In this document: positions 30,888-45,209 of the stretch, piece by piece
Numbering within the stretch: position 1 is the first letter of the stretch
Layout: each line of letters opens with the position of its first letter
Position numbers and translations under genes: made by a program
Notes under the pieces: generated by a model
The model's input: the letters and a program-made list of their open reading frames with translations, nothing else
Database searches by the model: none
Told to the model about the DNA's origin: nothing
NCBI GenBank assembly: GCA_022605405.1
Contig: JABYQQ010000002.1
Coordinates: 930,001-994,000 of the forward strand
Length of the DNA: 64,000 bases
From: Earliella scabrosa
Taxonomy: Eukaryota; Basidiomycota; Agaricomycetes; Polyporales; Polyporaceae
Direction: 5' to 3'

Positions 30888-31319
30888 CTAATCGATGTCG
30901 TCAAGCACGACCTCCTGCACGGTGTCAATGTTGAGCACCTCGTGCACCACACCACCGTCGCCACCAATGACCAAGACCTTCGGATCGGAATGGCTCGCCA
31001 GCGGGATGTGCGCGATCATCTCCTGGTACCTGCGCCCCAATCAGCACCATCGGATTCGAGCTGACCTGGTGTAATACGAGAACTCGTCGCGCTCCGTGCG
31101 CTGGATCACACCGCCGAGGACGAGAACGTTCCCGTACGTCTCCGACTCGAAAATGAGCACGTCCTGGTCGAGCGACTTCTCGACGTGCAGGATTTTGTTG
31201 ACCTTGAGGGTCATCGCCTGGCCCGGCATCTGCGACGAGATCTCACGGAACCAGCCATCTGAGAACGGTGAGCAGCAGTCGCAGGCGTCAGAGCGCATGT
31301 ACACACCGTTGATCGACAT
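30888..31319 (-). pseudogene. SPE3: truncated spermidine synthase
   Basis: The enzyme transfers an aminopropyl group from decarboxylated S-adenosylmethionine to putrescine. The start at 31319 gives MSIN, then after an intron [60 protein letters not shown] and, after a second short intron, [20 protein letters not shown]. The expected GGGDGG cofactor loop reads GGDGG, one Gly short, and a TAG at 30888-30890 ends the frame after VVLDDID. The catalytic Asp and the C-terminal two thirds of the roughly 290-residue enzyme are absent. The N-terminal intron position and sequence are normal, so this is a truncated gene copy rather than a retrocopy. It may be transcribed but cannot be active. Confidence 0.8.
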
Positions 31320-32229
31320 GGCTGCCCAGTGCCAGTGGATCGAGGAAGAGATGCTCGCGAAATTCTAATTCTGACTTGCACTGCATCTGAGTGAGATAAG
31401 ATTACATAGATTGGACCCAGATTGCATCGGGAACGGTCTTCACCGCCGCGATCGTCACCGATGCCAATCATGAGCAAGTCACCCGGTAGTCAAGGATGGC
31501 GGCGAGAACCTATCGAATATTAGACACGAGAGAGAGCGACAAGTGAAACCAGCACGAACGTCGAAGTCTTCCTTGTTGTCAGGAACCGCCCACATGTTGC
31601 GTAGAGTACAAGCTTGTAAGATAGAAGTATGCTGTGAGATGAATGCGCGAGGATCTGAGGATGATGGTCGACTGACGAGTTATTAGTGTTGCGCATACGC
31701 TGCTCGGAAGCTTAAGTACACGTACACAGAGACCGATAGGTCGCGTGCCCTTCTCACGCTCTAGACAGCAGACTTCGTCTCGTTCTGTCTATTCCTAGGA
31801 CCATTGTTGTATGACGACGACTACTCCCATGTCTACTATGATCTCTTGATTCCCCTGGCTTCGTTGGACCATCGCACTATCTCGGGCTTGGTAACCCGTC
31901 TTCGCCGCTGACGACTCCCCATCCTCGATTACGGGCCTACGAAACCTCATCCTCTTGGGCAACGTCGATATTCATCACGCGCATTGCAAGGCTTCTATTC
32001 CCCAGCAAGGGCTCTTAAGATTGGCGTTGTGGAGATGAGCGGGGCGGAGCTTGGCAGCACGAGCATGCAGAGGACACAAACAGAGGCTGCTGGAGGACTC
32101 GACGTGGGGGACGGTTGAGGCTGCAGACCCGGCAGACACGTTAGAGGGAGAGGGGAGCTAGAAGTGATTGCAAGGACTCAGGATATCATGTGAGTGTCAT
32201 CGTGCTTCGCGCCCGACTGACCATCCACG
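31320..32229. other. intergenic between spermidine synthase remnant and the H3-tail gene
   Basis: No open frame or repeat of note; probably promoter of one gene and 3' region of the other. Confidence 0.3.
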
Positions 32230-32952
32230 TCAAGACCCCAAGAGAATCCGGTGAGCGAATACGACGAAGAAAGGGCCGGTTAGGACAGGCTGGACTATCT
32301 TCGCACTGAATGCGAAGACACGGTAGGCGTTCATCCTAAACGAATCAGAAGGTAAGTAAGGTCTACTAGAGTTGATGGGATGACACCCACCTCTCTGCCT
32401 CGATCTTCAGCTGCAAACGCGTGTTGAGGTTTCGAATCAGAGCTCCACAGCTGAGCATCGTGAGCGTAGTCTCGTGTCGCTGGCATAGTTCACGAAGCTT
32501 GTCTGTAGTCATGACTCCCCACCACTAGTCCCGGTCTTCGTCAGTAAGAGATGGCCATGTAACAGTAATAGGCTTACCTCCACCGGATCAGAGGAAGACA
32601 TTTCGCTCCCAAAGTACAAGTCGCCAGTTTCGTCATGAGTGTGAGAATGGATGAAGAGTAGGAGGCGACCAGATGGAATGCTTGAGAAGACCATAAGCAG
32701 TAATAACGGTGAGAGAAACTGATCTAACCTGAATAATCCACTCAGGCTCTTGTCGAGTGCGGCCTTGTGCGACTTGATACCCTTTTGGTCATGAATACAG
32801 TAGGGGATGTCGACGTATCGGAGGTTGGAGCGACGGTCGCCAGGGTAGTATGGCGTGAATAAACCGTAAATGAGATGGGCTGGAGTACCCTCCTCGACGA
32901 GATTGGCCAGCCGGAGGTTGATGACAATTACCGGACGATTGTCGCATCTAGC

Positions 32953-33532
32953 TGTTGAACTTAGGGTTATCCGGCACTGTCCGGACCGATATGTCCCCAT
33001 ATGGACTTGTGGCTATGCGTTCACATGACGCACAGCATGGGCTATGCTTCTTCATTACTATATATAGATAACTCTGCATCTGTACGATAGTTCTTTCTTT
33101 CCGGACTTTACCTCTACGTACCAGTACGTTCTACGATGTTCCGGATAGTTCCAGACCTTATGTCTGACTCAGACTTGGTGCTCATCCTCGCGTCATACTG
33201 ACTCATCCTCGCACCATAGCCTCGTATGCCTCTTACTCATCGTCTTGTGGCTAACATGTGACTGCTTTCTACGCTTACTCAGCTACCTTCCCTACGTCTA
33301 TATAAGCAGCTCACATTTCGCCTCTGCTCTTCAGTCGTTCGCTCACTGACTGAAGAGTAAGTCTCATACATACATATGCTCTCTACTTACTTACTGACTA
33401 AGTACTTGTAGTCTCTCTCTGTTCGACTTACAGGTACTTATCTATGCAATATAGTCGTTCGCTCACTGACTGAAGATCTCTCTCTGTTCGACTTACAGTC
33501 GGCTCCCAGCCTTCCAGGTCTGAAGTTCATCA
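32953..33532 (+). repeat. 5' LTR of the copia element
   Basis: 580 bp, TG...CA. A TATA box (TATATAAGC) lies near 33298. A 23-bp word GTCGTTCGCTCACTGACTGA... occurs at 33334 and 33454, and TCTCTCTGTTCGACTTACAG occurs twice (ending near 33433 and 33498), so the LTR contains an internal duplication. The first copy is followed by GTAAGT and both later words end in TTACAG, which resemble splice sites. Confidence 0.95.
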
Positions 33533-33550
33533 GGTTATGAGCCCTGCGCT
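33533..33550 (+). other. probable primer binding site of the copia element
   Basis: Directly after the 5' LTR the sequence reads GGTTATGAGCCCTGCG, the usual position for tRNA priming. The matching tRNA was not identified. Confidence 0.45.
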
Positions 33551-34053
33551 CTGACCGGTTGCTACTTCGTCGACATCTTCGTGCGCACACCTCTCTCTTC
33601 GTCGACTCTCTGCCCGTGCTCCCTCCATCTTTCCTCACCTCTTGACTGTGCCCGCCGACACTGCTGCCAGGGGGACATTCCTGCGCTCGTGACGCAGCCC
33701 TGAGCGCTTTTGTATAGTTGTCGCGTAGCTAGTACTGTTGTACAGCCTGTTGTGCTCTCGAGGCATTTGGGCTTTCAGGTATCCCTCTGCCAGGCCACGC
33801 ACTTGCGCCCGCCAGCAGTTGTATCCGGGGTGCTTATCACCTTTGGAGACGGAGGACAACCGTGTGGACCCTCCTTACCGTACCCTTTGCTCTCGTATAG
33901 CTACTATAGTCTTTCTGGGCACAGTTGGCAACTTCTATCCAGATTGTCGGGATCTCCAGCTTCCTGACTTTCTTGGCTCGCCTCAATAGGTGTTCCCCAT
34001 CTACCGTTTCGCACGTGGCATCGTCAATCATCGCACCCTTCTAGACCACAGTT

Positions 34054-36630
34054 TTGGAGCCGACACCAGCATCTCCTCCCTCTGAGGCGGAAGTCGAGGA
34101 TCTGATTGACTCCCAGTCGTCGTCTGACTCCTCTGACTACAAACCCACCGTCGACTCTTGTCAGGAACTTCCACACGTTCTCGACGAGGAATACCCTGCC
34201 GATTCTCATCTCCATCCGGAGGACGGCTTCTGGTACAACTGTCACCGGAGTCCTTGTCCTCATCGGTACAACGGGGTTCCCGTTCAACCCGAAGATTATC
34301 CTGACACATTCAAGTGGGCTTTCCCCTCTCCTGACCAAGAGGATTTCCTTGCTGGAGTCAACACTGCCCTTCCAGTCGCATCAGACACACCCTATACCAC
34401 TCCTCTTCCTTTCATCGTCCTAATCCCTCCTACTCCGGAGGTTATCCCTGAGCCATTCGAGACTCTCCCTCCTCCTCTCGTCGAGTTACCTCCTCCTATC
34501 GCAACACCGCTTCCGCCGGTCACACCGGTAACAACATCCGTAGACTTCTCGGAGGACTATCTCGACTCATCGCACTTTCTCTTATCAATCATGGGAGACG
34601 TCAAGCTCGACTCTATCCCTTCCCTTTCGTCGGCGAACCAGTACACCGACTGGTCTGCCAAGATGAAGGGCTACTTCATCTTCATGGGCTGTTGGGACGT
34701 CGTCAACGGCAAGACCAAACGTCCGACTGCTGCTGACAAGCAGGAGTCCTGGGACAAGCTCGATGGGCAGGCTCGCGGCATGATGTACATGCGGGTCGCT
34801 CAGAGCTTCCATTACATCCTCGATGCGGAAATTCTCGACACCGTTACAACCAGTGGGTCCTCTACCACTACATCTCGGGAACAGACCGCAGCGGACATGT
34901 GGAAGTCCCTGAAGGACAAGTTTGGCACGCCAAACAGCGCTCACGTCTGGGGACAGTTCGAGACCCTTGTGGCTGAACCTCGGATGAACGAGCAGAAGTC
35001 CCTCCAGGATCAGATGATGCGTATCGTCAACCGCATGGATGACATCACCAAGAACAAGGTGACGCTCTCTGCCCAGATGAAGGCCCTCCTCCTTCTGTCG
35101 AAGATTCCGGAGTCTTATCGGTCTATGATCTCTGCGCTCATGGCGACCATCGACGTCGACAAGGTCACCGTCGAGGACATCATGTCCAAGACCTTGGCCG
35201 AGGAGTCGCTGCGCAAGGCCGGACAATCCGCGAACCGGGTCTCGCAGACCAAGCCTAAGCCTAAGGGTCCTTGCTCTCACTGCGGTGGCTCTAATCATCA
35301 TGAGTCTAACTGCTGGGACAAGCATCCTGAGAAGAAGCCCAAGGGCAAAGGCAAGGGAAAGGGAAAGGCGAAGGACAAGGATAAGGACAAGGACAAAGGA
35401 AATAACAAGGACAATCAGCCCCATGCGCATACCGTCGTCGAGTCTCAGTCTGTAAATGTAGTCGCGTCGTCTAACATTGTTGGTTCTTTCTACACCGAGG
35501 CCCTTGTTGCCTCTAGTGAGAACTGGACTGCATGGCTGATGGACTCAGGTGCCTCTCAACATATCACGGGCGACCTAAGTGACTTCTCCGAGTATCAACC
35601 ATTTGATACGCCCATCAGCTTCAATACTGCTGATGCGAGCAACATGATCCTTGCTCTCGGGAAGGGCACGGTCCGTGGTAACACTTGGGTTGATGGTGAC
35701 AAGGTTCCGATCGCGCTCACCCATGTGTACTACATCCCGAAGTTGAGAGGTCGTATCTTCTCGACAGGCACCATTGAGCGCAACGGGTACTCCCTTGTCC
35801 AAGGAGATGGGAAGATGTGCATCTTTGACAAGCTGCCAGAAGGCGCTGTCAAATTCGGTTCGATGATTCGGATCAAGGGTCGCAAGATCCTTGAAGCGGA
35901 GTACAACGTCCTGAGCAATATCTACTGGGCTAAGCTCGAACTTCACAATGGCCAGCGTGTTCATCTTAACGTCAGCCGCTTTCGTACCTTGCACCGTCGC
36001 TTTGGTCATCTCGGCAAGGACGCGCTGCGCCATCTCCCGAAGAACGTCCGAGGGGTTGATTCTGTTGATTCCCCTGAAGACGAAGATGAACCGTGTGAGG
36101 GATGCGCCTGGGGCAAATCCACTCGTCTCCCCTTCCCGCCTTCTGATAAGCGTGCTACGGAACCACTCGAGCTCGTTCACACCGATCTTGATGGCCCGAT
36201 GCGCACACAAGCTATCGGAGGTTACAAGTATTTCGCCGGTTTCATTGATGACTACTCCGGACTCGCCCGTGCTTACTACCTTAAGTCGAAGTCGGATGCG
36301 TTCCAAGCGTTCCTCGACTACAAGGCGTGGGCTGAGACCCAGACCGGTCGAAAGATCAAGAAGGTCCGCTCGGACCGAGGGGGAGAATACACTTCTACCG
36401 AGTTCTCTGAGCTTCTTCGTTCGCACGGGATCGAGCACCAGAAGACTATGCCTGGCTCTCCGCAGCAGAATGGACGCGCTGAGCGCTGGAACCGTACTAT
36501 CGTCGAAAAGGCCATGGCCATGCTCCATCAGGCAGGTCTTAGTCACGGTTTCTGGCAACTCGCCATTGATGCAGCCGTTCATATCTACAATCGTCAACCG
36601 ATGCGTCGCGTCAGCGCTATCAGAGCTTGA
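34054..36630 (+). CDS. copia Gag-protease-integrase polyprotein (858 residues), ends at the RT deletion
   Basis: An acidic N-terminal region leads to the Gag body (from about residue 180, MGDVKLDSIPSLSSANQYTD), a CCHC zinc knuckle CSHCGGSNHHESNC, a Lys-rich stretch, the aspartic protease motif WLMDSGASQH, a pre-integrase HHCC module (LHRRFGHLG ... CEGC) and the integrase core with all three acidic residues in context (HTDLDGP, SDRGGEYTS, NGRAERWNRT). The frame stops a few codons after IYNRQPMRR, where the reverse-transcriptase linker should begin. The annotated start is the first ATG; Gag might start further down. All visible domains appear intact. Confidence 0.9.
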   Translation: MEPTPASPPSEAEVEDLIDSQSSSDSSDYKPTVDSCQELPHVLDEEYPADSHLHPEDGFWYNCHRSPCPHRYNGVPVQPEDYPDTFKWAFPSPDQEDFLAGVNTALPVASDTPYTTPLPFIVLIPPTPEVIPEPFETLPPPLVELPPPIATPLPPVTPVTTSVDFSEDYLDSSHFLLSIMGDVKLDSIPSLSSANQYTDWSAKMKGYFIFMGCWDVVNGKTKRPTAADKQESWDKLDGQARGMMYMRVAQSFHYILDAEILDTVTTSGSSTTTSREQTAADMWKSLKDKFGTPNSAHVWGQFETLVAEPRMNEQKSLQDQMMRIVNRMDDITKNKVTLSAQMKALLLLSKIPESYRSMISALMATIDVDKVTVEDIMSKTLAEESLRKAGQSANRVSQTKPKPKGPCSHCGGSNHHESNCWDKHPEKKPKGKGKGKGKAKDKDKDKDKGNNKDNQPHAHTVVESQSVNVVASSNIVGSFYTEALVASSENWTAWLMDSGASQHITGDLSDFSEYQPFDTPISFNTADASNMILALGKGTVRGNTWVDGDKVPIALTHVYYIPKLRGRIFSTGTIERNGYSLVQGDGKMCIFDKLPEGAVKFGSMIRIKGRKILEAEYNVLSNIYWAKLELHNGQRVHLNVSRFRTLHRRFGHLGKDALRHLPKNVRGVDSVDSPEDEDEPCEGCAWGKSTRLPFPPSDKRATEPLELVHTDLDGPMRTQAIGGYKYFAGFIDDYSGLARAYYLKSKSDAFQAFLDYKAWAETQTGRKIKKVRSDRGGEYTSTEFSELLRSHGIEHQKTMPGSPQQNGRAERWNRTIVEKAMAMLHQAGLSHGFWQLAIDAAVHIYNRQPMRRVSAIRA

Positions 36631-37286
36631 TTGGCAGTCTTCTGTACGCCATGCTCGGTACGCGGCCCGACATAGCCTTTGCTGTCACGCGGCTTTCGAA
36701 GTTCAATGCCAATCCCTCAGACGCGCATCTCCACTATGCCAAGTATGTCCTTCGGTATCTTCAGGGTACTAAGGCGTACCGGCTGCGCTACCAGGGAGCG
36801 TCTAATGACGGTCTGATTTCGTACTCCGATTCGGACTGGGCCGAAGACCGTGATGATCGGCATTCTACCTCTGGCTTCATCTTTCTGATGGCAGGTGCTG
36901 CTATATCGTGGGCATCGAGGCGTCAGCCTACCATTTCGCTTTCCTCGACCGAAGCGGAGTATAAAGCGGCCTCTGACACTTGTCGTCAATTGGTGTGGCT
37001 GAGGACGTTCGGTGAAGAACTCGGCGATGACATGTCTCGACCAACTCCCATGTGTCTTGACAATCAGGGGTCTATCTTCCTGTCCGTCAATCCCGTGATC
37101 GACCGCCGGACCAAGCACATCGAGGTTAGATATCACTTCATCCGAGAGCAGGTGGAGTTGGGATCGACCGAGATCTTCTATGTAGCGACTGCGGATCAAC
37201 TCGCCGACGCTCTGACTAAGAATGTGCCTTTGGCAATTCAGTCGAAGTTCGTCCAAGAGATTGGTCTTGCTTATGTCACATCTTGA
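36627..37286 (+). CDS. copia RNase H and C-terminal segment, separated from the polyprotein by deletion
   Basis: The reading frame continues from about 36618 in another phase: YQSLIGSLLYAMLGTRPDIA is the end of the reverse-transcriptase region, then the RNase H motifs YSDSDWAED, SSTEAEYKA, LDNQGSIFL and RTKHIEVRYHFIRE. The palm motifs of the polymerase, including the expected YVDD, are absent. It overlaps the upstream frame by four bases, but this is a deletion junction and not a translational signal. By itself it would not be translated unless from an internal start. Confidence 0.85.
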   Translation: MIGSLLYAMLGTRPDIAFAVTRLSKFNANPSDAHLHYAKYVLRYLQGTKAYRLRYQGASNDGLISYSDSDWAEDRDDRHSTSGFIFLMAGAAISWASRRQPTISLSSTEAEYKAASDTCRQLVWLRTFGEELGDDMSRPTPMCLDNQGSIFLSVNPVIDRRTKHIEVRYHFIREQVELGSTEIFYVATADQLADALTKNVPLAIQSKFVQEIGLAYVTS

Positions 37287-37297
37287 ACGAGTGGGAG

Positions 37298-37877
37298 TGT
37301 TGAACTTAGGGTTATCCGGCACTGTCCGGACCGATATGTCCCCATATGGACTTGTGGCTATGCGTTCACATGACGCACAGCATGGGCTATGCTTCTTCAT
37401 TACTATATATAGATAACTCTGCATCTGTACGATAGTTCTTTCTTTCCGGACTTTACCTCTACGTACCAGTACGTTCTACGATGTTCCGGATAGTTCCAGA
37501 CCTTATGTCTGACTCAGACTTGGTGCTCATCCTCGCGTCATACTGACTCATCCTCGCACCATAGCCTCGTATGCCTCTTACTCATCGTCTTGTGGCTAAC
37601 ATGTGACTGCTTTCTACGCTTACTCAGCTACCTTCCCTACGTCTATATAAGCAGCTCACATTTCGCCTCTGCTCTTCAGTCGTTCGCTCACTGACTGAAG
37701 AGTAAGTCTCATACATACATATGCTCTCTACTTACTTACTGACTAAGTACTTGTAGTCTCTCTCTGTTCGACTTACAGGTACTTATCTATGCAATATAGT
37801 CGTTCGCTCACTGACTGAAGATCTCTCTCTGTTCGACTTACAGTCGGCTCCCAGCCTTCCAGGTCTGAAGTTCATCA
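37298..37877 (+). repeat. 3' LTR of the copia element
   Basis: Same 580 bp as the 5' LTR with no difference seen. Preceded by GAGTGGGAG, a short purine run serving as polypurine tract, and followed by the CTAGC target copy. Confidence 0.95.
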
Positions 37878-38697
37878 CTAGCGTGCTGGGGACGGGCACC
37901 TATGAGATCTAGTTCTACCCATTTGTCAAGAAACTCCGTTCGTTTTCCGTTGACGATGTGATATAGTCCCTGTATTGAAGAGAAACGGCATGAGCATGTC
38001 GGACTGATGACGTGGCAGCAGACAAGTACAGGGCTTACGTAGTACGGGGCACCCGGATCCTTGCGGGCAATTGCATGCCTCTTGTGACACGAAGGGCATA
38101 CGAATTCGAGCGTCGCGCGGATATCTTCAGGAACAGCCTGTATCGCAGGTGCATGACGGAGGCATATGATTCTAGGGCAGTGGTCGCACAAGAGGGTGTT
38201 TCCACCATCTTGGCAGACATAACAGAACTAGAAACAGTCAGCGGTCACATGAAAAACGAGTACAAGCATACTCACATCCTCCGACGATACAGCGGAATTA
38301 TGTGCTGCTGGTTCGGGTTTCTCTGCTGCATGTTGCAACTGCGAGACCGAAGTCTGGGTTCGCTTGGATGGCGGTTGAGTCTCTGGTTGATTGGATTGTC
38401 GGATTTATGTGAGTTGATTGCTCGGCCTCTCATAACGAGTACTTACCCTCGCTTGCTTGGGCGGTCGGCCTCTTGACACGTTTCCGAGTAGCAATCACTG
38501 AGAGGGGCGTGTCATCATCGGATGACAGCTCAATGGTGTTGTTCTCGACGGCGGGGTCAGGGCACTGCGGGAAGCCTGGAGCGAACGCGAGTCAGTAGAT
38601 CACTATCTACCGGACTTTCACTAGTAAGATTACCTAGTGAGTGCCGGGGATGTGTCCCGCCTGTTGACTGTCGAGCAGTCTGTTTCGTGCGTGCCAT

Positions 38698-39301
38698 CTA
38701 GTAGCAATATGTAAGATTAGTCGTTCCAAAAGTTTTACATGAGCAAACTGACCTCTTGCAACGTTGTGGTGAGCAATGAAGATACCAGGTGTGAGCGCTT
38801 CTGTGGCGTCTAGTCGAATGCTTTGTTTGTATGTGTTTGTCTGTCATACTGACCTGTGGGCCGTCAGTAGGACATTGAACGATCTAGGCTCGACAGTGAT
38901 GATGTATGACTCGATACAACTAAGAACCAGTGTTCATACGTATTTTCAGCTTACAGTGAATGTAGATTGAACTGTACGTCCTTTGGGGACGACGGTTAGT
39001 TGCGTAGCCACGTCCTGAAGTGATCACACGTAGTTATAGTCGTGCTCGACTTGCACGTTGTACTTGGTCTAGTGTTGCTGATAGGGCAGATCTATTTTGG
39101 CTGGTGACACTACGTAAGTTCTGCAGCCACTGACTGAGGTCTGCTCGCCTCTGTAGACAAGTGGAAATGAACATTGATGCAGCATGCTGACGATCAGGCC
39201 AATGTGCGACGCATCTCCGGGACAAGCCCTCCTAAAGGTGCTACCGGACCCCTGCAGCGCCCACTAAGTACCACTCGTGAACTAGCGGGTGGTCGTCGTC
39301 C
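38698..39301. other. upstream region of the H3-tail gene, otherwise empty
   Basis: No open frame with family features. The promoter of the minus-strand H3-tail gene should lie in its first few hundred bases. Confidence 0.3.
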
Positions 39302-40333
39302 TCACCTGGGTATGACAAGCGAGCCACCAGACTTCAGGAAGAACGCGAGCAAACGCGTGATGTCCGTGTGATGCGTAGCAGTGCACTGTGTGAAGCTCCC
39401 GTGAGCGCGCTGTGGCAGGTGATGACATGTAACACGTACGACGCTGACGTCAAAATTCGCGGCGTCGAGGGTTGCGCTGGCCCTCAGGTTCGACATGAGC
39501 GACGACTCCAACGCCCAGATGCGGAGCGGCGTGTTGGTATATTTGAACCCGTCGTGGTCGTGAGCGTCTCCTACTTAATCCTTTCTTCCCCTCCGCTGAT
39601 GTTTGGGACGACGTTGTCGGGCATGTCGAGGGAACACTGGAAACGCAACTCAATTGGTCGGAGCACGAGCTCTTTTGGCCGTAGAGACACATACTCGCTT
39701 CAAGCAAGAGGCGGTCACGCGCACCGAGGCCGGTGAACTGCACGGGCGAAGCAGATGGACCGCGACCGTCGGCGAGGGCGGAATGGAGGTCTGTCCAGAT
39801 GAAGAGAATCAATGCGGTGCAAAAACAACGGGAGAGGGGACGAAACAGGAACGCGCCTAGCTGTCCTCGCCACCGTGGGCGACGTGCAGTGCGAAACCCT
39901 GGGCGAGGACGAAGGCGCGTTTGCCGTCTGTATCCCTGGATGATACGATCCCGCAGCGCGGATCGTGATCACACCGCCGTCCAAGTTCCACTTAGACTTA
40001 GACGGCGCATGTGATAGCTGCACGCGCAGCGAGATGGGGTGCCAGGGTGTTTGCCTTCGTTGACGATCGTAAGAGTCGCGCGCAGGGTCCATCTTTGACC
40101 GCTTGAACTCCGTCTGCGCCTGCTGCCATTGGCTGGTTCGTACCGGCCTGAGGCCTAGTCCTGGAAATCGTGGCGCAACGAGGGGCCGTTTGTCGTGATC
40201 GCCTTGGCCCCAGGGCCAGCGCCCGGGAGCTGCTCTCAAGTTGCAGCGCTCGTGTTGTCATCGAGTGTCCTGCCCCAATTGAACTGGTGATAGTGGTAGT
40301 GGATGAATCGTCGAGGCTGGTTCCCAACACCAT
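39302..40333 (-). other. probable protein-coding stretch, unrecognised, frames broken
   Basis: Several minus-strand pieces look coding but lie in different frames: RCGIVSSRDTDGKRAFVLAQ and GFALHVAHGGEDS near 39960-39860, SALADGRGPSASPVQFTGLG then ARDRLLLEA near 39780-39690, and YTNTPLRIWALESSLMSNLR near 39540-39480. They may be exons of one gene or a decayed copy. No family was recognised. Confidence 0.3.
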
Positions 40334-41339
40334 GGCATCGTCAGGATGTCCATAGACTCCGCAATGTCACGCACCTCTGCCTTCTTCTGATCCTCACCCG
40401 TCTGCTCTTACATGCTCCACTGCACCCACCCTCAGCCTGGCTCGCGGACATCGAAGGAGGTGAGAGCCCCGTGGAGGCTTGGGAGGGGCTCCGACCGTAC
40501 AGGACTTGCTCGGTGGTGCTGTCGCACTCGGCGAGGTCAGAGGCGTTCCAGGTCGCAAGCTGGTGGTTGAAACAGGCGAGTCGCCGTCGCGGCGGCCAGC
40601 GTTGTTGGTAGGCGTCTGGCGCGTGCTCTGTTCGGATGTCTGTGTCAGCGATCATCCCGGATTTGGCCTTGATAAACACGGAGAGCGAGGAGCTGCAATA
40701 TGGGCGCGTACTCATGTGCTTGAGGAACTTGCGTCGAAGAAATCGACAGATCCACGGAGTGGCTCGCAACTGGGCGATATGCGTTCGAGAATGTAGCAGA
40801 ATGAGGGAGTGGAGTCTACTACGTACCAGTGCCGACGTTGCCGAAGAGCGGCATGGGGCAGGTCGATATGGGAGTCGTACAGACCGGGAGCATGAGCGAA
40901 CATGCGACGTCTTGGAGACTGGAGTGTCAGGGATTAACCACGCATCTTGATTATAAGGGCTTACGGAGTTGCAGCGTACGTTTCGGCAAGCAGTATTCGA
41001 GTTGCCACCCTTGTCGCCATCGTGCTAGTTGGCGCGGTCGAGGATAGGAACGAAGTGAGCACAAGAGCATTGTCGTGCCAGGGGGACAAGGGACAAGAAC
41101 AGCAACGAGATCTCTGGCGCCTATCCTATCTTATCTGGTACGACATCTTCACGTCCTCGCTTGCACGGTGACCCACTTGCAGAGTTGGAGGCGTGGCTAC
41201 AAAGCGGAGCAGTAGAACTGGCGGAGGAGTGATAATTATATGCGCATGTGTAGTAAGAGTCTATACGTGATGTACGTGATGTCGGGTGTATGCTAGGTGT
41301 GGACATGTATGCAAAGCGGCGGACAACTTGAGCAATGGG
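40334..41339. other. no recognised gene
   Basis: Overlapping frames on both strands without motifs. Confidence 0.25.
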
Positions 41340-43733
41340 TCATGATGAAGACACGGGGATATCGTCCGATTTTATCTGCTCCGGAGAAGGAGTAGTGTAT
41401 TCGACATCCTTGTCGGGTCGAATGATGTTGAATCCTTCCTCGTCGCTCCTCCACCGCATCTCCTTCTTCAGCCGCTCCGCGCGCAACTCGACCTCTGTCG
41501 GTGGCGGGTGATTCCTCTCCTCCTTCGTCGGTTCCCTGGTGTCCCGGGCAAAAGCTCGCGCAGTCTCGAGGTTCTCAACTAGGGGCTTGTAGTAGCTCTT
41601 GCGGGCCGACTCAATCTCCGACAGGAAGTCGCGATCAAGAGACTTCTTGTAATACGACTCGGGTTCGCGGTCGAAGTCAAGATCTGTCGGAGAAGCTCCG
41701 CAAGAAAGGCTTCTGCGGCTGTGCGGGGTCAACGGTGACGACTGGACGGGAGAGAACTTCGGGTGGTGGGGCGGAGAAGGGGCGGGTGTTGCCAATGACG
41801 AGCTTGAGCGCGGCCTCTGCACTTTGGCCCGTTCGTTGAAGAAGTCCCAGATCATGATGGGAATCTGGGTGAAGCCGATGTGATTCGTGAAGCTCACGAG
41901 CAGCATGGGAGGATGTGGGGGGATCGCAGCAGGCGGCGCATTCAGCCGAGAACCGATAGAGTCGGCTGATTTGGGGTGTGGTGTTGGAGCTCGGAGGTTC
42001 TGAGTCGGAAGGACGGAGTAGGGTGCTGAAGGAGGAAGACGAGAAGGTGTAGGGAGGGGTTCATCGTCTCCAACAGACACATCTGGCGAAAGTCCGGCTC
42101 AGGCTCGTCGAACTTGCCGTCCTCCTCCAGCATCCGCGCGAGCTGTTCTTCCCTGTCCACGACCTCCAGACCGTCTGTCCACCCTCGCTTCAGGCCAGCC
42201 ATACACTCCTTGACTGTATGACGATCGCCGGCTCCTTCTTCCCCCAGGTGAGGATCCATGTCGCCCACTCCGTCACGAACCCCAGGATCAAGCCAATCCA
42301 GAGCGAGATCTTGACGAGCTCCTTCTCCGACACGGGCGTGCCCCACGCCTCGGCCATCAAGAACGTGAAGCCCCAGAACGGGACACGCTCGTCGTTGGAG
42401 ATGTTGAACGCCTCGCCCTCGCATCGGGTCCCCGGGCGGCAACGCGGGCGCGTCCGCCGCCTGGAGCAAGCGCGATGCCGCGAGCAGGAAGGCGTGGACG
42501 AGGTTCTCGATGTACGTGGAAGTCGTAGTCGTTCTTGCCCTCGCGCGCCCCGTGCGGACATTGTTCACGACACGCGCGCTCAGCAGGAAGTCCCCGGGCC
42601 CGAACGTGGTGCACGGGCGGATGGCGAGCGTGAGCATGCCGTGCGTACGGTTCGCGGCGAGGCACTCCTCCTCGGCGATGGCCTTAGTGAGTGTGTAGAC
42701 GCGCTTCTGCACGGGGGGGCTTGAGGACGGGGAGCGTCTCGTCCGCGTCGACGAGGTCGCTGATGTTGTCGTGGATGACGGACGAGCTGGAGCAATAGAC
42801 GAAGGCCTTGACGGTGCCCAGTCCTTGCGCGAGGGAGAGGAGGAGGCGCGTGCCGTCGACGTTCATGCGGTAGAACGCGTCGTGGTTGCGCGCGAGCGGC
42901 GGCGGCCACGCGATGTGGAAGATGACGCGCGGCGGGTGCGCGAGGCTGCTGAGGAGCGCGCGCATAGCGGGCTCGTCGGAGATGCCGATGGTGTGGTCCT
43001 CGACGCCGGGGATCGTGTGGCTGGAGGTGTTCACGTCGAGTTGCAGTCCGGCTGCACCTGCTTCAATGCCTTTACGAGATTGCGGCCGACGAAGCAGCAC
43101 GGATCCGAAGGGCCCGCTATGACGAGCCCTCCGTCCGACCATCGTTGACGCTTCTCTTCCGGAGAGCTGCCCGGTAATTTCATTGGCCCCGATATTGGCT
43201 GGTCAAGTCCCAACATATCAACCTGCGCTGAGCGCGGATGTCATCTGCTACTCGACGCGCGATGTCTCCCAGCTTGCGCCCCTTGATCATGTCGTAGTCA
43301 ATGGCTGCTGCAACTAAGACGGGCTGACAGACATATTAGCTCGTCAGAGCGAACGGTCAAAAGAGAATGCACGAGCCTTGACGTACTTCCGGAAGTACCG
43401 CATGCTTCGGTCATAGTCCTCGTCACCCAGCCATTTCGCGCCATACACTGTGACCTTGCACGGGAGTTCCACGCTGCCGAGAGGCTGCGTCGCGACGTCC
43501 TTGACCTTGTCCACATACTCCTGGCGGATCTTCTTGCACTGCTGGCGGTCGTAGATGTAGTATCCCGTGACAGCAGAGGTGACCGAGAGGAAGATAAGCC
43601 AATTGCGGGAGGGGAGACCAGGTCGTTTGTCAAGCCATGACGGAGGGATACCAGTATACTGCGGCACCGTCCTCACGCCAGACTGCGGTGGCTTGTGAGT
43701 GGGGAAGACGCTGTCGCCAGCGTTGGAGCCCAT
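41340..43733 (-). pseudogene. TIM54: TIM54 (mitochondrial inner-membrane translocase subunit), interrupted and frameshifted
   Basis: Tim54 supports the TIM22 complex that inserts carrier proteins. From ATG 43733: YTGIPPSWLDKRPGLPSRNW, a membrane helix LIFLSVTSAVTGYYIYDR, and DEDYDRSMRYFRKYVK; then after an intron VLVAAAIDYDMIKGRKLGDI, SSPEEKRQRWSDGGLVIAG. A foreign 888-bp block (42224-43111) intervenes, after which HTVKECMAGLKRGWTDGLEV resumes in the Tim54 order, down to LLVSFTNHIGFTQIPIMIWD, PESYYKKSLDRDFLSEIESA and EVELRAERLKKEMRWRSDEE, with the stop at 41340. Outside the insert there is a frame change after EPEPDFR (near 42080), and LKLVIGNTRPFSAPPPEVLS near 41800-41760 lies in a shifted frame that returns to DLDFDRE. 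So it cannot be a working copy of this normally important gene unless the sequence contains indel errors. Confidence 0.85.
42224..43111 (-). pseudogene. ERG26-like sterol C-4 decarboxylase/dehydrogenase fragment inside TIM54
   Basis: The insert encodes most of a 3-beta-hydroxysteroid dehydrogenase family protein: VGRNLVKALKQVQPDC (Rossmann start, its glycine motif lost), SSHTIPGVEDHTIGISDEPA, FYRMNVDGTRLLLSLAQGLG, VKAFVYCSSSSVI, the YTLTKAIAEEECLAANR helix carrying the catalytic YxxxK, IRPCTTFGPGDFLLSARVVN, TYIENLVHAFLLA, GEAFNISNDERVPFWGFTFL and a membrane-like ISLWIGLILGFVTEWATWIL, ending at KKEPAI. At least three frame changes break it. In ergosterol synthesis this enzyme acts at the endoplasmic reticulum. 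The ends of the block fall inside codons of TIM54 (GG/C and CGT), no target duplication is evident, and its length is 888 bp. Confidence 0.8.
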
Positions 43734-43938
43734 CGCCAGAGACGACGCTAACGGAGTCCTGCACAAGGCCGGCTGGAAAGATTGGGCAAGCGCGCATTCA
43801 CGAGCGACTGGACGCGCGATCGGGCCGGGGACCGCCCTCTTGACGGCGCCACGGGAGCCAAGCGGAGCCACACAGCCTTCCTGCTTGTTCATGCAGGGCG
43901 CTCACTGACACCACCATTGTGACTGTCGAGTCTCGACC

Positions 43939-45209
43939 ATGGCCGCCCTCGCTTCGTGAGTTCTTGCTCTTGCTGCTCCCGGGTTGTCGGCTTATTCTGC
44001 ATCTCAGACTCCTCCCAAAGCCCTTGAACGCGCCTGTGGTCTCGGATGACGACGACGACGAGGTCCTGCAGGTCCAGGCACAACAGCAGGCCGGTCCTTC
44101 ACAGGCTGTGATCATTCGTCAGGCGGTGCCACCATATGGACAACGGAGAGGATGGAAGCTAACTTCACTAGAGGACCTCGGTGCGTGATGCAGTTCTGTG
44201 CAGGTTCGTGTCGTTTGACCGGCTCGCGGCTTGCAGGAGACATCTGGAGCGGCCGTCAGAGGACGAGGTGCAGGCGACCACGGAGAAGACTCGCGCCGCA
44301 CTCGACCGAAGCTCTCTTCGTGGCTACCGCCATACACGTGAAGAGGTCAGGCAACGCGCTCTCATGCAGCAGAAGCTCTCCGAGAAGGAGAAGGCGCAAA
44401 AGCAGGAGAATCTTCGTCTCCTCGCTCAGCGCGCGCGCGAAGAGCGTGCCGGGATTGCACCTCGCGCTGCCGAGGCAGCGAAACCAAGTGCCGAGCGCAC
44501 CGCCGCAATGCAGTCTTTCTTGGTGCGTACGGTTCCGGGAGTGAGTCGGATTTAGAGCCGTCCGAGGACGAGGAGGACGAGGAGGCGGCTAAGATCCGAG
44601 ACCAGATGCGTCAGGAGAAGAGGAGGGAACGCGAGCGCGAGATGCGCATGAGCAACATGGGCACGGAGCAGCGTGCGAACATGCTTGCTCGACAGCAGAA
44701 CCGTGATATCGGAGAAGATTGCGCTTGGTCTCGCGAAGCCGACCCTTTCCAAGGAGAGCACGCTGGACTCGCGGTTGTTCAACCAGGAGTCGCTCTCTGG
44801 CAGCTTCGCGGACGACGACGCATGCAACCTATATGACTGCCCGCTCTTCCACGGCTCGAGTGCCGCTGCGGCGATCTACAAGGCTCGCGGGAACATCTCC
44901 GAGGGCAACCAGGACTCGTTCGGCGGTGGCACCGAGGAAGGAATCGGCAAGGCTCTGGAGACCGACCGTTTCGAGCTTGGCGCCCCCCGCGTCGGCTTCG
45001 AAGGTGCCAACGAGCAGGAGGTCAGGGAGGGCCCCGTGCAGTTCGAGAAGGACTCCGGGGATGTCTTCGGGCTCAACAAGTTCCTCGACGAGGCGACGAG
45101 CGGCCGGAAACGCGGTCTTGACACCGAGGTGTAAGTGCGAGGATGCCTGACCTGAACCATACTGACGACGTTCCGTTCTGGCAGTGGCGGTTCGCGGAAC
45201 CGGCAGTAG
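43939..45209 (+). pseudogene. PRP45: SNW/SKIP-family splicing factor (PRP45) with central deletion
   Basis: SNW proteins act in the activated spliceosome and in transcription. Exon 1 (43939-43955, MAALA) joins exon 2 at 44008 across a 52-bp intron: LLPKPLNAPVVSDDDDDE, then the conserved AVPPYGQRRGWKLTSLEDL. The normal protein would continue with the long SNW core; here only LERPSEDEVQATTEKTRAAL remains before a jump to TREEVRQRALMQQKLSEKEK and ENLRLLAQRAREERAG. The C-terminal part is good: AAKIRDQMRQEKRREREREM, then, after a two-base loss at NRDI, EKIALGLAKPTLSKESTLDS, LFNQESLSGSFADDD, YKARGNISEG and KFLDEATSGRKRGLDTEV, with a final intron and a stop at 45207-45209. The missing core contains the SNWKN signature, so this copy is non-functional. 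Confidence 0.85.

Follow-up and report, generated by a model that had tools for sequence, protein, structure and literature searches.

A histone H3 tail copy on caspase/CHAT-like proteins of mushroom-forming fungi and its possible role in gating a chromatin-directed protease

A 64,000-nucleotide stretch of the Earliella scabrosa genome (contig JABYQQ010000002.1, positions 930,001 to 994,000; hereafter the window) contains a minus-strand gene whose product begins as a copy of the histone H3 tail: from position 38697 an ATG is followed by ARTKQTARQSTGGTHPRHSL, which is identical to H3(1-20) at 15 of 20 positions. Sequence comparison and structure modelling place this gene in a family of proteins from mushroom-forming fungi in which the tail copy is joined to a PHD-like zinc finger and to a domain with a predicted caspase/CHAT fold. 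We propose, with a probability of roughly 0.42, that the tail copy gates what is probably a chromatin-directed cysteine protease. A native protein in which a copy of the H3 tail, a finger of reader type and a caspase-like fold come together is apparently undescribed: no such family was found in the literature among the matches listed, in several cases only the best-ranked papers, with subscription journals poorly covered.

The H3-tail copy very likely forms the N terminus of the protein

The original prediction, made from the window alone, placed a protein with an H3-like N terminus at 38276-38697. The mimic is real and very likely N-terminal, but that interval holds exons 1-3 only. The gene continues into finger and CHAT-like exons, where a copia element at 32953-37877 interrupts it (Table 1). 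The prediction also held that chance resemblance was very unlikely. A chance origin is ruled out by the probability of at least 15 matches in 20 (4e-16 to 1e-11 per start, with a per-site rate of 0.05-0.10) and by pattern counts in the 51.7-Mb genome, where a degenerate DNA pattern for ATG-ARTKQTA has 11 matches and its reversed control 0. These 11 are three H3 genes (C4, C9 and C20) and eight members of the tailed family.

The window copy has an in-frame TAG immediately 5′ of its ATG, and an in-frame stop is present no more than 75 nt upstream of the ATG in 8 of 11 family loci inspected (two of the eight being near-identical duplicates). Where blastn matches of one paralogue to another span exon 1, two end exactly at the ATG, while that of the C10/C11 pair continues 31 nt beyond it. 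Because of these upstream stops and match ends, the sequence makes exon 1 very likely the coding start, and a start codon further upstream unlikely. One Suillus model, P0012, begins upstream of the tail Met, and its relative P0015 begins at that Met. Window exons 1-5 have GT-AG borders (exon 5 from 37969). Exon 1 is 64 nt long and ends in phase 1 in C27 and in all the modelled Earliella copies that have a clear tail; splicing was modelled by homology, with guides drawn from the tailed family itself.

Distribution of the family

Searching the Earliella genome with the C-terminal domain gave 15 matches at 12 loci, which together with the window copy make 13 loci. The tail is clear at nine of these, eroded at two (C27, MAGTQQTARRSCGEQAAHIAL; C18, MARTKRNATRQ...) and not found at two (C3 and C1:2499586). 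The histone fold (PF00125) has 20 matches in the genome, none of them at a family locus, in agreement with the prediction that the rest of the protein is not a histone.

Duplication and decay are evident among the copies. C2_849 bears lesions, and L011 holds two members facing each other at 1980 (+) and 8416 (-), their starts about 6.4 kb apart, of which the second is lesioned. C3 and C18 are 99.9% identical over 2.2 kb (L033 1-2226, L034 1406-3631), C3 being without the N-terminal exon and having different upstream DNA. Extragenic DNA is common to four paralogue pairs, C10/C11, C3/C18, C1_26/C1:2499586 and the window copy with its sister gene at C2:843479; no other such sharing was seen among the loci compared, and there was no clear sign among them that the genes are cargo of a mobile element. 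In C1_26/C1:2499586 the shared DNA consists of two stretches of 85 and 100 bp upstream of the gene, 78-79% identical (L009 4089-4173 and 4452-4550; L036 495-579 and 110-208), and because they match in the same order the two copies may share a neighbour. A tandem repeat with a 74-bp period lies upstream of the C10 and C11 copies (L015 4828-5495, L016 4369-5001) and is about 84% shared.

Fungal proteins starting like H3, which the original prediction had proposed to look for, were found by protein database searches in seven further species: Ganoderma sinense, G. leucocontextum, Dichomitus squalens, Polyporus arcularius, Pleurotus djamor, Suillus variegatus and S. subluteus. Eight of the nine foreign proteins have MARTKQ[TS] (P0012 at an internal Met), and the model of the ninth, P0016, begins after the finger. 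Identity to the Earliella C17 protein is only 18-27% for the proteins from Pleurotus and Suillus; their N termini read ARTKQTARQSTG in Pleurotus and ARTKQTARKATG or ARTKQTACKATG in Suillus. The finger and the C-terminal domain largely stay attached to the tail, a result to be read with the bias toward tailed relatives of a search that requires shared 5-residue words and that had the tail in the query in two of three cases. The tail-less query returned four proteins, one of which (P0011) was itself in the query; of the three new ones P0015 and P0017 are tailed, and the third is P0016. Matches to bird CHD5 (E 2e-4 and 9e-4, 16% of the query covered) are not taken as members. Some public models of the tailed family look faulty: the finger exon is skipped in P0001, the N-terminus of P0003 is misplaced, the last part of P0005 is off-frame and P0006 runs on into a peptidase S53 gene.

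The tail is conserved on its own account

By sequence comparison, no part of the protein is better kept than the H3-tail copy. Mean identity between species over 12 proteins is highest in A1-G12 (0.88), falls to 0.46 in residues 13-20 and 0.41 in the finger, and is 0.28 in the CHAT-like domain, 0.26 in the C-terminal ribbon and 0.05 in the linker. Absent from this comparison are the Earliella copies C2_849 (lesioned), C27, C18, C3, C1:2499586 and that of the window (whose tail is the sister's), as well as Polyporus P0010 (a model without CHAT exons), P0012, P0016 and P0017.

Residue by residue, H3 identity was counted over 17 tails, with the window and sister copies counted once and C18, C3, C1:2499586 and P0016 omitted; two Suillus tails among them are identical, leaving 16 distinct sequences, and 16 of the 17 are clear H3 copies, C27 being eroded. 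The match to H3(1-20) is 13-17 of 20 residues in 16 tails and 10 of 20 in one. The first eight positions are kept almost throughout (A1 17, R2 16, T3 17, K4 16, Q5 17, T6 15, A7 16, R8 14), followed by K9 in 5, S10 in 14, T11 in 16, G12 in 17, G13 in 5, K14 in 2, A15 in 16, P16 in 12, R17 in 14, K18 in 1, Q19 in 1 and L20 in all 17. K4 is thus the kept lysine and K9 is mostly replaced, as had been read from the window copy.

Among eight Earliella tails (the window copy and C27 excluded), A1-G12 have a proportion of synonymous differences (pS) of 0.76 and of nonsynonymous differences (pN) of 0.115, a ratio of 0.15; the ratio for residues 13-20 is 0.43. Between C10 and C11, omega is 0.04 for the tail (7 differences only), 0.12 for the finger, 0.09 for the CHAT-like part and 0.42 for the linker. 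At the DNA level a tail is no more similar to the host H3 genes than to its fellow tails, and nothing points to a recent copy having been taken from H3. With synonymous sites near saturation and a pN/pS of 0.15, the substitution pattern indicates that purifying selection acts on the tail itself and that the tail is not a relic. That exon 1 is the remnant of a real H3 gene, the alternative named in the original prediction, is rejected: the tail stands on the same type of protein at 9 of 13 Earliella loci and in seven other species, its synonymous sites are nearly saturated, and no histone fold lies downstream.

A reader-type finger and a predicted caspase/CHAT-like domain

The finger of the C17 paralogue matches PDB sequences of CHD4, TRIM33, TRIM66, TRIM24, BHC80/PHF21A and AIRE at E values of 1.5e-9 to 6e-5, and is by sequence closest to the H3K4me0-reader class of PHD fingers. 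Members of this class recognise the unmodified H3 tail through its free Ala1, Arg2 and Lys4, and in BHC80 and TRIM24 an acidic residue preceding the first finger Cys contacts the unmethylated K4.

The C-terminal domain is modelled as a caspase-like alpha/beta fold, with 5-13% identity to CHAT and caspase structures. One His and one Cys are invariant in 11 of 11 members and lie in the model after strands 280-287 and 327-334, a predicted placement consistent with a putative His/Cys dyad of the clan CD type. Among the 11 members, Pfam gave no CHAT or caspase model at E values up to 10. PADLOC likewise gave neither, with a single weak match to Cmr5, and a profile of the C-terminal domain reached a best E value of 0.3 against PDB sequences. 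A single-sequence AlphaFold2 (AF2) fold was unusable, with a predicted local distance difference test score (pLDDT) of 34.5.

The window copy is a disrupted duplicate

The sequence indicates that the window copy is a dead, truncated duplicate of the fuller sister gene, because a copia element splits its exon 5 and the duplicate stops inside the last exon, leaving exon 7 incomplete and the protein without the C-terminal zinc ribbon. Window positions 37878-40676 correspond to C2:841500-844298 at 99.9% identity; the match resumes at 32238-32952 (99.7%) and extends upstream to 44463. Including 32238-32952, the duplication comprises about 7.3 kb, and some 125 kb of the contig separate its two copies. 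The modelled frame of the sister holds tail, finger, CHAT-like domain and ribbon; the model ended before any stop codon in the stretch used, and its exon 5 possibly contains a 51-nt intron.

Table 1. Features of the window copy and of the DNA that interrupts or contains it.
Feature	Position	Strand	Support
Exon 1, 64 nt, Met and H3-tail mimic ARTKQTARQSTGGTHPRHSL	38634..38697	-	Same 64-nt exon 1 in other clearly tailed Earliella models
Exon 2, linker (ELSSDDDTPLS...)	38447..38575	-	Sister copy splices identically
Exon 3, linker	38276..38382	-	Window read and sister copy model
Exon 4, PHD-like zinc finger FCYVCQDGGNTLLCDHCPRIICLRHAP...CPSCH	38039..38227	-	Pfam PHD E 0.011, below cut-off
Exon 5, 5′ part, start of caspase/CHAT-like domain, severed by copia insertion	37878..37969	-	
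Exon 5, 3′ part, with conserved-His segment (LLLFIHSHTHDETGDLY)	32578..32952	-	99.7% match to sister copy L011
Exon 6, conserved-Cys segment (LTMLSCGAL)	32391..32524	-	Match to sister copy
Exon 7, first part only (MNAYRVFAFSAKIVQPVL...HRILL)	32238..32335	-	Duplication ends here, then frame stops
Ty1/copia-type long terminal repeat (LTR) element within exon 5	32953..37877	+	580-bp LTRs 32953-33532 and 37298-37877, identical; 5-bp target duplication CTAGC
Inverted segmental duplication, part	37878..44463	.	Shared with C2:837715-845008 (99.8-99.9%)

The copia element, with its identical LTRs, was inserted very recently. As read here, its first open reading frame (34045-36630) has a CCHC knuckle and an integrase-like part, and the next (36570-37286) resembles an RNase H end; despite the recent insertion, the element seemingly has no reverse-transcriptase core. 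Elsewhere, a minus-strand fragment at about 30900-31330 of the window, which we take to be spermidine-synthase-like and which runs into a stop, seems to be a broken copy.

Proposed mechanism and alternative explanations

Given that the tail copy shares its chain with a finger closest to the readers of unmodified H3, the tail may bind the protein's own finger; more generally, real H3 is probably its competitor for histone-binding sites, whether on this protein or on others. In the mechanism that we propose, Met would be removed and the free ARTK end would dock on the protein's own finger, either within one chain or on an adjacent molecule, while S10-T11-G12, A15-P16-R17 and L20 would be bound at other places on the body, possibly over the protease site. 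H3 unmethylated at K4 would displace the tail, so that the protein would be parked on nucleosomes and the protease freed, H3 itself being the simplest candidate substrate. A second tail contact, perhaps in the protease groove, is suggested by the keeping of positions 10-12, 15-17 and 20, and AF2 offers a hint of it, in that within the tail region only residues 13-26 rise above a pLDDT of 50 (about 64). The more specific form of this mechanism, in which the tail is a decoy substrate lying across both finger and active site until unmethylated H3 displaces it and is clipped near L20, would make the family a new class of self-gated chromatin protease, active on K4-unmethylated chromatin only, and is doubtful. 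The window copy, as a disrupted duplicate, could not on its sequence perform such self-gating.

Several observations weigh against gating by the protein's own tail. The Foldseek match of the finger to BHC80 (2puy), with a probability of 0.96, has an E value of 0.2, and the scores to Pfam PF00628 are below the 24-bit cut-off (16.2 bits for the window protein, 15.3 for P0015 and 11.7 for P0007). None of the 12 family fingers examined has the canonical Cys4-His-Cys3 order of ligands: zinc ligands 5 and 6 are swapped (C..H for H..C) in ten, and the remaining two, from Pleurotus and Suillus, deviate again at these positions. In only 6 of 12 members does an acidic residue stand at -3 or -2 relative to the first Cys of the finger. 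In the AF2 model tail residues 1-12 have a pLDDT below 50, and ARTK is not docked on the finger. Finally, 4 of the 13 Earliella loci, with an eroded tail or none found, still keep the finger and CHAT-like motifs, which argues that the tail is dispensable in some paralogues.

Recruitment, the function suggested in the original prediction, would have outside H3K4 readers or writers (PHD proteins, COMPASS, demethylases) bind the tail, so that the protease is brought to them or the partners are titrated. The preference for K4 (16 of 17) and Ala1 (17 of 17) over K9, K14 and K18 (5, 2 and 1) favours it, and the unconserved linker would suit a flexible tether; however, it leaves the H3K4me0-reader-type finger in the same chain unaccounted for, and as most K4 readers see residues 1-8 only, the keeping of positions 10-12, 15-17 and 20 is unexplained. 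We regard recruitment as a live but rather unlikely alternative, and self-binding or gating as at least as likely, given the K4me0-class finger, the caspase/CHAT fold, the 13 loci, the seven other species and the disrupted window copy. Another alternative takes the tail for a copy of the substrate: the protease would cut H3 close to L20/A21, and in its own tail, acting as a pseudosubstrate or cleaved by the enzyme itself, L20 would occupy P1 or a position near it. The mimic stops around A21, a common location of H3 clipping, all 17 tails keep L20 while positions 18 and 19 vary freely, and AF2 confidence is higher at residues 13-26; but residue 21 is unconserved and the raised pLDDT is still about 64, and a built-in substrate copy appears unlikely.

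That a single genome contains many copies, diverged, duplicated or broken, could also indicate an integrated immune or conflict decoy, an H3 copy that baits the H3-tail enzymes of invaders, tampering with which triggers the caspase-like domain. CHAT/caspase folds do act in immunity, as a passage on Craspase in PMC9729208 describes, but ordinary fungal families also commonly duplicate and decay, and we consider this improbable. Least probable by far is a SNAG-like hook for an LSD1-type demethylase. LSD1 contacts H3 1-20, which corresponds to the length and the kept positions of the mimic; this reading is weakened by the genome, where the two SWIRM matches (C6:649409 and C1:2631842) adjoin none of the 15 amino-oxidase matches and no canonical LSD1 was seen by an exon-wise search that may miss one.

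Comparison with known systems

Yeast vacuolar Prb1 is a general protease with an H3-clipping role, and the described H3 clippers named in the passages of the literature used here include other general proteases (cathepsin L, MMP-2). Proteolysis of the H3 tail is a feature of nearly all eukaryotes, according to a passage of PMC10170761. If the proposed mechanism is true, a dedicated, chromatin-addressed protease would be new among H3 clippers. With some positions kept (K4 and L20) and others not (K9, K14 and K18), the tails amount to a natural mutational scan of what a binder of the H3 tail needs. Each of the three components, histone mimic, PHD finger and CHAT protease, has known examples; judged on sequence, their union in a native protein is not among the systems found.

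Like the H3 tail, most of the 17 tails have its residues 1-8, 10-12, 15-17 and 20, with Met directly before Ala1. Unlike H3, the family has variable residues at K9, K14 and K18 and no histone fold at its loci, and its first intron follows residue 20, which is not so in the three host H3 genes (H3 frames as read here). The finger shares the C-x2-C...QNGG...C-x2-C core of the H3K4me0 readers BHC80/PHF21A, TRIM24, TRIM33, CHD4 and AIRE, but differs from them in its fusion to a protease fold, its swapped ligands 5 and 6 and its inconstant K4-contact acid. In contrast to SAVED-CHAT, TPR-CHAT, caspases and C11, the family carries an H3 tail and a finger and has no CHAT or caspase profile match. Influenza NS1, SARS-CoV-2 ORF8 (ARKS), hepatitis delta antigen and the SNAG of SNAIL likewise present a histone-like peptide on a non-histone protein. 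Most known histone mimicry involves viruses and short motifs, and these other mimics copy short or approximate motifs, whereas here a 20-residue H3 tail, matching at up to 17 of 20 residues and at the exact N-terminus, is carried by the fungi's own proteins together with a reader-type finger, and is kept between species whose protease-like domains are only about 28% identical.
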